A model generated the notes under the pieces. That model saw only the letters and a list, made by a program, of their open reading frames with translations, was not told where the DNA came from and searched no databases. Made by a program: the position numbers and the translations under genes. Source: Opitutus sp. (GTDB lineage Bacteria; Verrucomicrobiota; Verrucomicrobiia; Opitutales; Opitutaceae). From it: a DNA stretch of 35,055 nt. Position 1 is the stretch's first letter. Every line of letters begins with the position of its first letter. The stretch is from positions 1 to 35,055 of the forward strand of contig PNKG01000006.1 in assembly GCA_013822585.1 (NCBI GenBank), written 5' to 3'. This document shows, piece by piece, positions 1,568-21,121 of the stretch.

Positions 1568-2914
1568 ATGTCCCTCCGACCCCTGTTACCCCTGGCGGTC
1601 CTGCTGGCCGCCGGCGTCTGCGCACAGGAGAAGACGGTCGTCTTCCAGGGCGCACAACTGATCCCCATCGCCGGCGAGCCGATCGCGGACGGCGTGCTCG
1701 TCGTCACGGGCGGCAAGATCGCCGCCGTCGGCCCGGCTGGCCGGGTCGCGGTGCCCGCGGGCGCCGAGATCCGCGACGTCCGCGGCAAGGTCATCATGCC
1801 GGGCCTCGTCGATTCCCACAGCCACATCGGCGGCCCCGCCGGCGCGGATGCCTCGAACCCGATCCAGCCCGACGTCCGCGCGCTCGATTCCATCGACGCC
1901 CAGAGCCCGTCGATCCAGAAGGCGCAGGCCGGCGGCATCACCACCGCCAACCTCATGCCCGGCTCGGGCCACCTCATCAGCGGCCAGACCGTCTATGCCA
2001 AGCTCCGCGACGGCCGCACGATCGACGACATCCTCATCCGGCTCGACGACGGCGCCATCGCCGGCGGCCTCAAGATGGCCAACGGCACCAATTCGATCCG
2101 CCCCACCGGCAATTTCCCCGGCACGCGCGGCAAGTCCGCCGCCCTCGTGCGCGAGCAATACATCAAGGCCCAGGAATACCGCGCCAAGATCGAGCGCGCC
2201 AAGGGCGACCCGGAGAAGATGCCCGCCCGCGACCTCGCGCTGGAGGAGCTGGTAGAGGTCCTCGACGGCCGGCGGGTCGTCCAGCACCACACGCACCGGC
2301 ACGACGACATCCTCACCGTCCTCCGGCTCTCGAAGGAATTCGGCTTCAAGGTCGTGCTCCACCACATCAGCGAGGGCTGGAAGGTCGCCGACGAGATCGC
2401 CCAGGCCGGCGCGGCCTGCTCCGTGATCATTGTCGACTCCCCCGGCGGCAAGCTCGAGGCCAAGGAAGCCTCGTTCGAGACGCCTGCCGTGTTGGAAAAG
2501 GCCGGTGTGCTCGTCGGCCTGCACACCGACGACGGCGTGACCGACTCGCGCCACTTCCTCCGCGTGGCCGGGCTCGCCGTGCGCGGCGGCATGTCGCGCG
2601 AGGGCGCGCTGCGCGCCCTGACGATCGCCAACGCGAAGATCCTCGGCCTCGAGAACCGCGTCGGCTCGCTCGAAAAGGGCAAGGACGCCGACTTCATCAT
2701 CCTCAATGGCGATCCGCTCAGCGTCTACACGCATGTCGAGCAGACTTGGGTCGAGGGCCGCAAGGTCTTCGACCTCGCCGACCCGCAGGACAAACTCTAC
2801 GCCCTCGGCGGCGCCGGGGCGGGCGATCCGCGCCGCATGCAGCTCTGCTGCTTCGGCAACGCCTGGGACATCATCGCCGCCGCCAACGCCCAGCTCTTCG
2901 GAGGTGCCCAATGA
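1568..2914 (+). CDS. Exported amidohydrolase (imidazolonepropionase-like)
   Basis: A 448-residue amidohydrolase-superfamily enzyme of the imidazolonepropionase/COG1228 type. A signal peptide (MSLRPLLPLAVLLAAGVCAQ) predicts export. The fold is visible in order: small beta-sandwich start (residues 25-75), metal motif DSHSH (H84, H86), a possible second ligand group QHHTHRHDD (about 239-247), H265/H266 in VVLHHISEG, the late aspartate motif GLHTDDG (about 318-323), and the C-terminal return strand ENRVGSLEKGKDADFIILNG. All ligands expected of an active metal-dependent hydrolase are there. The ATG at 1568 is chosen because it starts the signal peptide; the longer ORF from 1403 reads through transposase-relic DNA. 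The stop overlaps the next start (ATGA), so the two paralogues form an operon. Substrate unknown; a peptide, cyclic amide or nucleobase-like compound is possible. Confidence 0.88.
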   Translation: MSLRPLLPLAVLLAAGVCAQEKTVVFQGAQLIPIAGEPIADGVLVVTGGKIAAVGPAGRVAVPAGAEIRDVRGKVIMPGLVDSHSHIGGPAGADASNPIQPDVRALDSIDAQSPSIQKAQAGGITTANLMPGSGHLISGQTVYAKLRDGRTIDDILIRLDDGAIAGGLKMANGTNSIRPTGNFPGTRGKSAALVREQYIKAQEYRAKIERAKGDPEKMPARDLALEELVEVLDGRRVVQHHTHRHDDILTVLRLSKEFGFKVVLHHISEGWKVADEIAQAGAACSVIIVDSPGGKLEAKEASFETPAVLEKAGVLVGLHTDDGVTDSRHFLRVAGLAVRGGMSREGALRALTIANAKILGLENRVGSLEKGKDADFIILNGDPLSVYTHVEQTWVEGRKVFDLADPQDKLYALGGAGAGDPRRMQLCCFGNAWDIIAAANAQLFGGAQ

Positions 2915-4299
2915 GAATGTTCCGCTCGTTTGCCGTCGTTGTGGGCGGGGTGCCCTCACCCCGCGAGTTGCCGATTTCGCCGCGGCGTTCCTGCCGGGTG
3001 GGGGAGCCCGGCCCACAGCGCACCTCGGCCCTTCTTGCGCTGCTTGCGTTTTTTGTGGCCACCCCTTCCGCACTCCGCGCGGCCGACACCGCCGACATGC
3101 CGCTGGCCATCCACGCCGACACGCTCCACACCGCCACCGGCGCGCCGATCAGGGACGGCCTCGTGCTCGTCGGCCGCGACGGCAAGATCGCCTACGCCGG
3201 GCCCGCCAAGGACATGATGTATACCGCCGACCACCGCGTCGTGCGCGCCAAGGTCGTCACGCCCGGCCTCATCGACGCCCGCGCCACGGTCGGCCTTTCC
3301 GGCCTGCTCAATCAACCGCACGACCAGGACATGCTCGAGCGCTCCGCCGCCGTGCAGCCCGAGCTCCGCGCGCTCGACGCCTACAACGCCCAGGACCCGC
3401 TCGTCGCGTGGGTGCGCGGCTTCGGTGTCACCACCGTCAACACCGGTCATGCCCCCGGCACGCTCATCTCCGGCCAGACCATGATCGTGAAAACCCTCGG
3501 CCGCGAGACGGAGGCCGATGTCGTGAATCCCGCCGCCATGACCGCCGTTTCGCTCGGCACCAACGCCCTCAACCGCACCGACGGCCCCGGCGGCGCGGCC
3601 GGCGCGGGTCCGCCGCGCCCCCCCGGCACGCGGGCCAAGGCCGTCGCCATGCTCCGCGCCGAACTGATCAAGGCGCAGGAATACGCGCGGAAGCGCGAGG
3701 CCAAGGACGAGTCCAAGCACCCGGCGCGCGACCTGAAGCTGGAGACGCTCGGCCGCGCCCTCGACGGCAAGCAGCCGCTCCTCGTCACCGCGCAGAAACA
3801 GCTCGACATCCTCGCCGCGCTCCGCCTCGCGAAGGAGTTCAACCTCCGGATCGTCCTCGACGGCTGCGCCGACGCCCACCTCGTGCTCGACGAGATCAAG
3901 GCCAGCGGCTTCCCGGTGATCCTGCACCCGACGATGGCCCGGGCCAACGAGGACACGGAGAACCTCGCGATGGACACCGCGAAGAAACTCCGCGATGCCG
4001 GCATCCCCTTCGCGCTCCAGAGCGGCTACGAATCCTACGTGCCCAAGACGCGCGTGGTGCTCTTCGAGGCCGCGGTCGCCGCGGGCAAGGGCCTCGGGTT
4101 CGACACCGCGCTGGCCAGCGTGACGATCGAGGCCGCGAAAATCCTCGGCATCGCCGACCGCACCGGCTCGCTCGAAAAGGGCAAGGACGCCGACCTCGCG
4201 CTCTACGACGGCGACCCCTTCGAATACGCGACCCACTGCACCGGCACCGTGATCGACGGCCGCCTCTTCGACGGCGAGAAATCCCCCTCCACACCCTGA
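2911..4299 (+). CDS. Amidohydrolase paralogue, probable pseudoenzyme, with repeat insertion in its signal peptide
   Basis: A 462-residue paralogue of the preceding gene, translationally coupled to it (ATGA overlap, GGAGG about 7 bases before the ATG). The overall fold aligns throughout, including LISGQT, IKAQEY, the PARDL segment and the RTGSLEKGKDAD end. Every metal-ligand site I can align has changed: DSHSH is DARAT here, the HTHRHDD segment is TAQKQLD, VVLHHIS is IVLDGCA, and LHTDDG is LQSGYE. From family knowledge this should abolish metal-dependent catalysis, so I infer a non-catalytic partner or regulator of the upstream enzyme. The N-terminus is unusual: after MRMFRSFAVV come 25 residues encoded by a palindromic element, then a normal hydrophobic core (SALLALLAFFVA) and an ALRA-like cleavage site. 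Export probably still occurs, but with a long n-region. Confidence 0.85.
   Translation: MRMFRSFAVVVGGVPSPRELPISPRRSCRVGEPGPQRTSALLALLAFFVATPSALRAADTADMPLAIHADTLHTATGAPIRDGLVLVGRDGKIAYAGPAKDMMYTADHRVVRAKVVTPGLIDARATVGLSGLLNQPHDQDMLERSAAVQPELRALDAYNAQDPLVAWVRGFGVTTVNTGHAPGTLISGQTMIVKTLGRETEADVVNPAAMTAVSLGTNALNRTDGPGGAAGAGPPRPPGTRAKAVAMLRAELIKAQEYARKREAKDESKHPARDLKLETLGRALDGKQPLLVTAQKQLDILAALRLAKEFNLRIVLDGCADAHLVLDEIKASGFPVILHPTMARANEDTENLAMDTAKKLRDAGIPFALQSGYESYVPKTRVVLFEAAVAAGKGLGFDTALASVTIEAAKILGIADRTGSLEKGKDADLALYDGDPFEYATHCTGTVIDGRLFDGEKSPSTP
2941..3015. repeat. Paired-palindrome (REPIN-like) element inside the amidohydrolase-2 signal peptide
   Basis: Exactly 75 bases (25 codons) with imperfect inverted ends: GTGGGCGGGGTGCCCTCACC at the left and a matching GGGGGAGCCCGGCCCAC at the right. 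Each arm is itself a hairpin (GCGGGGTG-AGGG-CACCCCGC and GCCGGG-TGGGGGAG-CCCGGC), giving the two-hairpin inverted layout of REP doublets. It is translated in frame without stops (residues 11-35). The paralogue upstream lacks it, which supports insertion rather than ancestral sequence. Confidence 0.7.
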
Positions 4300-4324: not shown

Positions 4325-4415
4325 GTCCCTGGAGGGCGCGGCTACCGCCGCGCCGCAACCGAGTCGGTGCGCTTCGCCGCGTGCACGGCCCGGCAGTAGC
4401 CGGGCCCTCCAGGAC
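4325..4415. repeat. Paired-palindrome intergenic repeat (CCTGGAGGG family)
   Basis: Outer inverted ends of the form CCTGGAGGG / CCCTCCAGG enclose two strong hairpins, GGCGCGGCTACCGCCGCGCC and GGCCCGGCAGTAGCCGGGCC, separated by about 30 bases. It lies about 25 bases after the amidohydrolase-2 stop and ahead of the dehydrogenase at 4524. It may also act as a transcription-end or mRNA-protecting structure, but no T-run follows, so it is not a classic intrinsic terminator. Confidence 0.7.
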
Positions 4416-5550: not shown

Positions 5551-5625
5551 CAACAAGGAGCGGCTTTGCGCCGCGATGCGGGCGCCGCTCCGGTTTCGCG
5601 ACGGTCGGGGCGCAAAGCCCCTCCG
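5551..5625. repeat. Paired-palindrome repeat (GCTTTGCGCC family), third and diverged copy
   Basis: Two inverted hairpins, GCGGCTTTGCGCCGC and GGGGCGCAAAGCCCC, separated by about 32 bases, lie between the convergent dehydrogenase and the membrane-protein gene. The hairpin core is the same as in the longer elements at 14372 and 20985, but the terminal sequence of those copies is missing. Its position between two converging genes would suit a bidirectional end structure. Confidence 0.65.
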
Positions 5626-11592: not shown

Positions 11593-13257
11593 ATGAGCGA
11601 ATCCGCCAACATCGCCCGGCACCTGCCGCTCATGGCGGCGCGCCAGCCGGACCACCCGGCGGTCAAGGTCCCGCGCGGCCGCTCCGGCGGGCGCATCGAC
11701 TACCTCGCGCTCTCCTTCCGCGAGCTCGACGACGAGGTGAACGCCTGGGTCGCGCGCCTCGGGGCCAAGGGCGTGCGCCGCGGCGACCGCGTGCTCGTGC
11801 TGGTGCGGCAGGGCCTGCCGCTCATCGCCGCGGCCTTCGCGCTCTTCAAGCTCGGCGCCGTGCCCGTGATCATCGATCCCGGCATGGGCCGCGGGAGCTT
11901 CCTGCGCTGTGTCGAGCGCTCGCGCCCGCGCGTGCTCCTCGGCATCCCGCTGGCGCAGGCGCTGAGCCACGTGTTCCGCCGCGCCTTCGCCTCGGTCGAG
12001 GTGCGCGTCTGGGTCAGCGGCTCGCCCACGGCCCGCTGCGGCGGGGCGGGTCCGGGCAAACTGGCGGAGACCGCGCCGGGCGAGCTGGCCGCCATTCTCT
12101 TCACCAGCGGCTCCACCGGCGCGCCGAAGGGCGTGTGCTACGAGCACGGCATGTTCGACGCGCAGGTGCGGCTCGTGCGCGACACCTACGGCATCCGGCC
12201 GGGCGAAGTCGATTTGCCGATGCTGCCGATCTTCGCGCTCTTCAACCCCGCCCTTGGCATGACCACCATCGTGCCCGAGATCGACCCCTCGCGTCCGGCC
12301 GCGGTCGATCCGGCCAAGATCGTGCAGGCGATCGAACAGGAGAAGGTGACGAACACCTTCGGCTCGCCCACGCTCTGGCGCAAGATCGCCGCGCACTGCC
12401 GCGCCACGCAGGCGACGCTGCCGGCGTTGCGGCGCGTGCTCATGGCCGGCGCGCCCGTGCCGCCGGCGCTGTTTGCCGAGGTGCAGGCGCTATTGCCGAA
12501 CGGCACGGCCCACAGCCCTTATGGCGCCACCGAGTCGCTGCCGCTGTGCAACGTCGCCGCGGCCGAGATCGATGCGGCGGCGACCCTGACCGGCCGCGGC
12601 ACCTGTGTCGGCCGTCCCGTGGACGAGATCGAGGTGAGGATCATCGCGCTCACCGACGAGCCGGTCGCCACGCTCGCCGGGGCGCACGAACTGCCGCCCG
12701 GCGGGATCGGGGAGATTGTCGTCCGCGGCCCGGTGGTGACCAAGCTCTACGACGCGCTCCCCGAGGCGACCGCGGCCGCGAAGATCCGCGACGGCGACAC
12801 GGTGTGGCACCGCATGGGCGACGCCGGCTACCTCGATGCCGACGGCCGCCTCTGGTTTGTCGGCCGGAAGGCCGAGCGCGTCGAGACCCGCGAGGGCCTG
12901 CTCTTTCCCGACCAGGTGGAACCCATCTTCAACCAGCACCCCGATGTGCGGCGGACGGCGTTGGTCGGGCTCGGCGAGCGGGGCCGGCAGCGGCCGGCGA
13001 TCGTCGTCGAACCGCGCGGCCGCGCGGTGGTGGAGACCCCGTCGCTGCGCCGAAAGCTCATGCGCGAGCTGCGCGCGCTCGCCGCAAAGCATCCGCACAC
13101 GGACCGCATCCGGCTGGCCTTTCTCCATCCGGCGTTTCCCGTCGACGTCCGCCACAACGCCAAGATCCACCGGCTCACGCTGGCAAAATGGGCGGCGCAC
13201 CACTCGGGATACGAACTCGACAAGCGCGAGGTGCCCGTGGGGGCCCTGAAGCGATGA
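11593..13257 (+). CDS. oleC: OleC: AMP-dependent acyl ligase/beta-lactone synthetase of olefin biosynthesis
   Basis: A 554-residue adenylate-forming enzyme. The ATP motif ILFTSGSTGAPKG (residues 169-180), the SPYGATES motif, and the GDAGYLDADGRLWFVGR hinge are all intact. Length and the paired oleD gene identify OleC, which cyclises a 2-alkyl-3-hydroxyacid to a beta-lactone with ATP; OleB later decarboxylates it to a long-chain cis-olefin. A plain fatty-acyl-CoA ligase is the alternative, but the ATGA overlap with an OleD-like reductase argues for Ole. The ATG at 11593 is preferred because the upstream codons derive from a palindromic repeat. OleA and OleB, required to make olefins, are not in this window. 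Confidence 0.85.
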   Translation: MSESANIARHLPLMAARQPDHPAVKVPRGRSGGRIDYLALSFRELDDEVNAWVARLGAKGVRRGDRVLVLVRQGLPLIAAAFALFKLGAVPVIIDPGMGRGSFLRCVERSRPRVLLGIPLAQALSHVFRRAFASVEVRVWVSGSPTARCGGAGPGKLAETAPGELAAILFTSGSTGAPKGVCYEHGMFDAQVRLVRDTYGIRPGEVDLPMLPIFALFNPALGMTTIVPEIDPSRPAAVDPAKIVQAIEQEKVTNTFGSPTLWRKIAAHCRATQATLPALRRVLMAGAPVPPALFAEVQALLPNGTAHSPYGATESLPLCNVAAAEIDAAATLTGRGTCVGRPVDEIEVRIIALTDEPVATLAGAHELPPGGIGEIVVRGPVVTKLYDALPEATAAAKIRDGDTVWHRMGDAGYLDADGRLWFVGRKAERVETREGLLFPDQVEPIFNQHPDVRRTALVGLGERGRQRPAIVVEPRGRAVVETPSLRRKLMRELRALAAKHPHTDRIRLAFLHPAFPVDVRHNAKIHRLTLAKWAAHHSGYELDKREVPVGALKR

Positions 13258-14375
13258 ACGGCCCTGCCTTCATCACCGGCGCGAGCGGATTCATCGGCGG
13301 CCAGCTCGCCGGGCGGCTCCTCGCGGCCGGCCGGCCGGTGCGCGTGCTCGCGCGGCGCGACCTGCCGGAGCTGGCGAAACTCGGCGCGCGGATCGTGCGC
13401 GGCGATTTGCACGACCCCGCGGCCCTGCGCACGGGCTGCGAGGGCGCGGAGACGGTTTTCCATGTGGCCGGGCGCGTGGGAGTGTGGGGACCGGACGAGG
13501 ATTTTTTCCATGTGAACGTCGAGGGCACGCGCCACGTGGTCGCGGCTTGCCGTGCGGCGCACGTGCCGCGGTTGGTCTATACCAGTTCGCCGAGCGTGGT
13601 CTTCAACGGCGGCGATCTGGCCGGGGTCGACGAGTCCGCGCCGCTCTGCGCCGCGGCGCCCTGCGCCTATCCGACGAGCAAGGCCGCGGCCGAACGGCTC
13701 GTCGCCGCGGCCAACGGCCGCGAGTTGGCGACCGTGGCGTTGCGGCCGCATCTCGTCTGGGGGCCGGGCGACCGCCACGTCGTGCCGCGCGTGCTGGCGC
13801 TGGCGCGGCGCGGCAGGCTGAAGATCGTCGGCGCCGGGCGGAATCTCGTCGATTGCACGCACATTGCGAACGTCGTCGACGCGCACCTGTGCGCCGAGCG
13901 GGCGTTGGCGAATTGTCACCTAATAGGTGACGGACAAACAACGCGACGCGCGGATTTCCGGGCGAGCGAGGGGGAAAGTTGTCACCTAATAGGTGACAGT
14001 GCCCACGGAGCGACGGCCCGCGGAGGGGCGCGGGATCCGCGGGGGAAGGCGTATTTCATCACGAACGGCGAGCCGGTGGTGCTCTGGGACTGGATCAACG
14101 AGCTGCTGCGCGGCGTGGGCATTCCCGAAATCACGCGCCACGTCCCGCTCGGCACGGCGTATCGGGCGGGCGCGGTGCTTGAGACGCTGTGGCGCTGGCT
14201 GCCGCTGAAAGGCGAGCCGCCGATGACGCGCTTTGTGGCCAAGGAGCTGGCGACCGACCACTGGTTCCGGATCGACGCGGCGCGCCGCGACCTCGGCTAC
14301 GCGCCGCGTGTGACGATGGAGAGGGGGACGGCGGAGTTGATCGCGCACTACCGCGCGGAGCAGCCCTTCTATTGA
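13254..14375 (+). CDS. oleD: OleD: NAD(P)-dependent 2-alkyl-3-ketoacid reductase with an in-frame repeat insertion
   Basis: A 373-residue short-chain (extended) reductase of the 3-beta-hydroxysteroid dehydrogenase group. It should reduce the 2-alkyl-3-ketoacid made by OleA to the hydroxyacid used by OleC. Visible are the nucleotide-binding GASGFIGG (residues 9-16) and the catalytic YPTSK (Y139, K143) with SSPS near 111-114, then the typical GKAYFITNGEPV...WDWIN segment. Between residues 219 and 263 an extra stretch of about 40 residues appears, containing CHLIGDG and CHLIGDS 22 codons apart; it is encoded by a palindromic element and absent from the family as I know it. It falls past the active-site motifs, in a loop-like region, so the enzyme may still work. 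Coupled to oleC by ATGA. Its stop codon lies in the terminal repeat of another element. Confidence 0.85.
   Translation: MNGPAFITGASGFIGGQLAGRLLAAGRPVRVLARRDLPELAKLGARIVRGDLHDPAALRTGCEGAETVFHVAGRVGVWGPDEDFFHVNVEGTRHVVAACRAAHVPRLVYTSSPSVVFNGGDLAGVDESAPLCAAAPCAYPTSKAAAERLVAAANGRELATVALRPHLVWGPGDRHVVPRVLALARRGRLKIVGAGRNLVDCTHIANVVDAHLCAERALANCHLIGDGQTTRRADFRASEGESCHLIGDSAHGATARGGARDPRGKAYFITNGEPVVLWDWINELLRGVGIPEITRHVPLGTAYRAGAVLETLWRWLPLKGEPPMTRFVAKELATDHWFRIDAARRDLGYAPRVTMERGTAELIAHYRAEQPFY
13911..14039. repeat. In-frame palindromic insertion within oleD
   Basis: Two exact copies of the 17-base palindrome GTCACCTAATAGGTGAC (13915-13931 and 13981-13997) sit 66 bases apart, a multiple of three, so both are read as CHLIGD. 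Between them lies GGATTTCCGGGCGAGCGAGG, similar to the inverted interior of the element at 11485. The right-hand boundary is judged from where the OleD family sequence resumes (GKAYF) and is approximate. Confidence 0.75.
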
Positions 14376-20984: not shown

Positions 20985-21121
20985 CCCGGATTCCGCGATT
21001 GGAGAGGACGGTTCCGAATGTGGGAGCGGCTTTGCGCCGCGACTTTCCCGGGCGCGGAAGAGGCGGCCGACGCCGGGACGTAAAGCCGCTCCCACACTTC
21101 AGGCATTCATGGAATCCGGGG
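20985..21121 (+). repeat. Long paired-palindrome element, copy 2
   Basis: CCCGGATTCC at the left and GGAATCCGGG at the right enclose GTGGGAGCGGCTTTGCGCCG and its inverse GTAAAGCCGCTCCCAC. It matches the reverse complement of 14372-14517 over about 133 bases with roughly ten mismatches, including a spacer (CTTTCCCGGGCGCGGAAGAG) that is itself not palindromic. Conservation of the non-palindromic spacer shows common descent, not convergence on hairpin structure. Confidence 0.85.

Follow-up and report, generated by a model that had tools for sequence, protein, structure and literature searches.

The window analysed here, a 35,055-nt stretch of contig PNKG01000006.1, belongs to an Opitutaceae MAG (G000; 2.55 Mb, 363 contigs, 73% complete) and contains two neighboring paralogous genes that share 38% identity, P0002 and, directly downstream of it, P0001 (Table 1). 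The 5′ coding region of P0001 carries a paired palindrome that the upstream paralogue lacks. Its 76-bp core at 2941-3016 is an imperfect inverted pair of the hairpin GTGGGCSGGGTGCCCTCACCCSGC, that is, a REP doublet, also called a REPIN or head-to-head GTGG REP dimer, with the layout GTGGGCGGGGTGCCCTCACCCCGC-28 nt-GCCGGGTGGGGGAGCCCGGCCCAC. Both arms consist of a GTGG head and a short hairpin. The arm pair folds better than dinucleotide shuffles of the same sequence, both as DNA (z -2.8) and as RNA (z -3.0). An Rfam check of the window returned one tRNA and no other match.

Table 1. Features at the P0001 locus (positions refer to the window).
Feature	Position	Strand	Description
P0002	1568..2914	+	upstream paralogue, no insert; stop overlaps P0001 start
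Shine-Dalgarno GGAGG	2900..2904	+	6 nt before ATG 2911; SD-ATG context identical in congeners G116 and G074
P0001	2911..4299	+	host gene; exported amidohydrolase (Amidohydro_3/_1), 462 aa; export predicted from sequence
REPIN (head-to-head REP dimer)	2940..3017	no strand	76-bp core, usually flanked by T and A, here at 2940 and 3017
REP arm 1	2941..2964	+	GTGGGCGGGGTGCCCTCACCCCGC; GTGG head, 8-bp stem, 4-nt loop; fits family pattern without mismatch
Spacer between arms	2965..2992		28 nt, non-conserved; length as in other 76-bp copies, sequence unlike
REP arm 2	2993..3016	-	GTGGGCCGGGCTCCCCCACCCGGC; 2 mismatches to family pattern
In-frame GTG inside element	2998..3000	+	possible alternative start giving an ordinary signal peptide
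Signal-peptide hydrophobic core	3028..3060	+	ALLALLAFFVA
ALRA	3070..3081	+	putative signal-peptidase site, from sequence

The original prediction described a 75-bp paired palindrome with inverted ends, absent from P0002, that stretches the signal peptide of P0001. Most of this agrees with our analysis: the arms at 2941-2964 (+) and 2993-3016 (-) are indeed inverted and sit in frame, after codon 10 and ahead of a normal signal-peptide core, and removal of 75 bases leaves MRMFRSFAVV-QRTSALLALLAFFVATPSALRA. The predicted n-region grows from about 14 to about 39 residues with the insert while the hydrophobic core is unchanged. Within the element, codon bias falls to about -0.5; in the mature part of P0001 it is back at about +0.6. 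Tat export was considered and discarded because the stretch SPRRSCRV, judged by eye, does not contain the motif.

The palindrome is thus real, but its size has to be corrected to 76 bp (GTGGGC...GCCCAC), or 78 bp with the flanking T and A, since the earlier figure, which depends on where the cut is placed, omits the last base of the symmetric unit. A T precedes GTGG in 65 of 73 family heads, so that the conserved unit is best given as T+76+A, or 78 bp; the dinucleotide CT precedes 22 of the 73 heads compared with a background of 5%. The length inserted at this particular place is not fixed exactly because none of the orthologues compared has a clean empty site at the P0001 locus. A length of an exact multiple of three, proposed earlier as a property of the element, could not be upheld. 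Copies between genes have the same 76-bp geometry, which rules out a codon-tuned length.

Copy numbers in G000 were determined by pattern searches. With up to 3 mismatches allowed, the 24-nt arm yielded 55 matches and the reversed control 9; the 55 include opposite-strand shadows of the same hairpins and correspond to about 27 places. The family is both multi-copy and dispersed, as is characteristic of the GTAG/GTGG REP superfamily. Members of the family have a GTGG, sometimes GTAG, head followed by an 8-bp stem and a 4-nt loop. Full pairs, including intergenic copies and those of congener G189, are mostly 76 bp long with unlike spacers, and this combination of inverted REPs, fixed distance, variable spacer and long hairpin folds is that of REPINs. 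Across the Opitutaceae, the arm was found at up to 1 mismatch in 35 of 200 genomes and 15 of 49 genera (control matches: 0), while one family genome, G003, had no match to the exact arm sequence within 1 mismatch.

In five genomes of relatives, the family is associated with a cognate RAYT. A 138-codon RAYT of G189 sits exactly between two inverted family arms, and its protein matches NF047646 (REP_Tyr_transpos) with an E-value of 1.3e-20 and a score of 73.8, just under the NCBIfam cutoff of 80. RAYT homologues with 47-69% identity are bracketed likewise in four further genomes from three other genera (G037, G049, G141 and G198). A 51% homologue in G024 is not bracketed by family REPs, nor is any RAYT below about 47% identity. 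No cognate RAYT was found in the 73% complete G000, where the best match has 43% identity and is flanked by a different REP; genome incompleteness could explain the missing gene. None of the four RAYT-like genes of G000 (C3, C11, C64 and C200) is flanked by this GTGG family, C3 being flanked by GTAGGGCGGGGTCGCCGAACCCCGC. Separately, a 522-bp stretch of G189 (L230:1001-1522) is bracketed by two inverted family arms and contains further inner inverted repeats; with no evident RAYT frame, it is possibly a nested or decayed REPtron.

Seven of the about 27 family places in G000 lie in frame inside six ORFs, both genes and intragenic copies having been called by a codon-bias scan. These ORFs are P0001, an HrpB-like helicase, uvrA (two copies), a U32 peptidase, a DUF58 protein and a 211-aa protein. 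Six of the seven copies read VGGVPSPR-like, a sample too small for a claim of frame bias. The hrpB and uvrA sites were compared among congeners on both strands. For hrpB (loci L313-L324), 7 of 12 congeners share a 153-nt empty site; the other five are filled in frame at the same place (G000 +60, G201 +54, G096 +54, G040 +42 and G189 +72), and the five inserts represent four different palindromic REP-type families. At uvrA site A1, an empty site of 159 nt in nine congeners is filled in G000 (+42), G040 (+42) and G201 (+33). These comparisons show that both genes have received in-frame insertions at sites that are empty in relatives; they carry intragenic REPs in the published sense (PMC3733652), which bears out the earlier suggestion that repeat insertion recurrently adds in-frame segments in this genome. 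The uvrA gene of G000 (L257) holds, besides its two copies of the GTGG family, one GTGGAGCGCGTTGACC-family dimer, one TGTAACC pair and two more inserts of GTAGGGCG-like or PAEPR..DG type.

The residues that the element encodes in P0001 are absent from all of the about 70 orthologues listed. Most congeners encode an orthologue without any insert. The orthologues of G116 and G074 carry another REP family, GTGGAGCGCGTTGACCTCAACGCGCTC, in the same signal-peptide n-region; this sequence has 188 and 69 matches in the respective genomes (control: 0). The G074 orthologue (L061) contains an additional GTAG REP, so that two different REPs follow each other in a row, still in frame. In total, three REP families occupy this n-region in three congeners, and G000, G116 and G074 have the same SD-ATG context and a frame that stays open through the different inserts.

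These observations make it highly probable that a gene for a predicted exported amidohydrolase received, in its 5′ coding region, a REPIN from a RAYT-associated family, and that the insertion survived since it left the reading frame open and the n-region tolerates extra residues. The REPIN most likely spread as single-stranded hairpins handled by a RAYT (TnpA_REP). Known RAYT relatives cut CT/CA sites adjacent to GTAG (PMC8266576), and the T and CT preceding the family heads fit such cleavage sites. Frame-keeping insertions in tolerant places such as signal n-regions, loops and linkers would survive, and tolerance is probably the reason for where in-frame insertions sit. In P0001, translation from ATG 2911 would run through the element, and the n-region of roughly 39 residues would presumably still direct export before being cleaved off, leaving the mature enzyme unchanged.

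Alternatively, the element could effectively be 5′-untranslated, with translation starting at the in-frame GTG 2998 in arm 2 and yielding MGEPGPQRTSALLALLAFFVATPSALRA, an ordinary signal peptide with a normal n-region of 10 residues. Many REPs at the 5′ ends of ORFs have been argued not to be codogenic (PMC3733652). However, this GTG lies inside a stable stem without an evident Shine-Dalgarno sequence, whereas ATG 2911 has a good one and overlaps the stop codon of the upstream gene, in a context identical in G116 and G074, two genomes whose orthologues contain other REP inserts and likewise keep an open frame. We consider the internal start unlikely. Still less probable is that the hairpin is kept as a regulator of translation or mRNA stability between the two coupled paralogues: a stable RNA hairpin does start 30 nt past the P0001 start codon, and other REP hairpins are found at the same place in two congeners, but the same GTGG family occurs in many unrelated contexts, mid-gene included, and most congener orthologues of P0001 are without any insert. 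An assembly or binning artefact, conceivable in a fragmented MAG, is hardly credible given that the P0001 copy has its own arm differences, its own spacer and an intact frame, and that congener genomes show the same arrangement at other sites.

Intragenic in-frame REPs as such are not new and have been published for Opitutus terrae, which holds the most GTAG copies and in which both uvrA genes are double-hit and RNA helicases and a DNA ligase also carry REPs, the intragenic inserts encoding 20-30 residues (PMC3733652). The elements in G000 resemble these as GTRG-tagged palindromes that form head-to-head dimers and in-frame inserts, and the two cases share target classes (uvrA double inserts, RNA helicases) and bacterial family. 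The GTAG-20 family of O. terrae mostly has GTGG (PMC3733652). Both the sequence of the G000 family and a host gene hit in its signal peptide may be new. REPINs of Pseudomonas fluorescens SBW25 likewise are RAYT-associated and consist of two inverted REPs, with a constant overall length and a spacer that varies; they are described as extragenic (PMC3116915), whereas several G000 copies are intragenic and in frame. Rickettsia palindromic elements (RPE) also are palindromic repeats found in frame in many unrelated proteins (PMC3733652). Membership in the RPE-4 or RPE-6 type was rejected since these are CGTC-tagged and not RAYT-linked (PMC3733652), in contrast to the GTGG-tagged, RAYT-linked family of G000. 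The latter offers a clear case of a short RAYT-linked repeat that supplies new protein segments.

One case of several REP families at one position has been reported, recB in Xanthomonas (PMC3733652), and the presence of several families at one residue position in the present genomes goes a little beyond that account. Given four families at the hrpB site in 5 of 12 congeners, inserts in three at the uvrA site and three families in the P0001 n-region of three congeners, unrelated REPIN families might repeatedly land at certain protein positions, a reading that we regard as unlikely. If true, it could point to RAYT targeting of gene positions, for example by means of single-stranded hairpins at specific sequences, or to useful peptides, as opposed to survival alone. 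The Didemnitutus-like congeners provide clean empty and filled hrpB and uvrA sites, where the same residue is occupied by several independent REP families, and these comparisons allow targeting to be tested against survival at tolerant sites, a question raised previously (PMC3733652).

Other repeats are present in the window. An oleD-like gene (13254-14375) had been cited as another case of repeat insertion, but its repeat is a different one; it contains a pair of TGTCACCTAATAGGTGACA palindromes (13914 and 13980, within 13884-14003), encodes the peptide CHLIGD twice and shows a collapse of codon bias between the two palindromes. A related pair, TGTAACCTAWTAGGTTACA, spaced 52-54 bp apart, is found in uvrA of G000 (L257:739 and 793), on G000 contig L026 and at the uvrA locus of G040 (L327). 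Three more inverted repeat pairs in the window, at 4328-4413, 5557-5624 and 21019-21096, are all intergenic and represent other REP-like families (CTGGAGGGCGCGGCTACC; GTGGGAGCGGCTTTGCGCCGCG).
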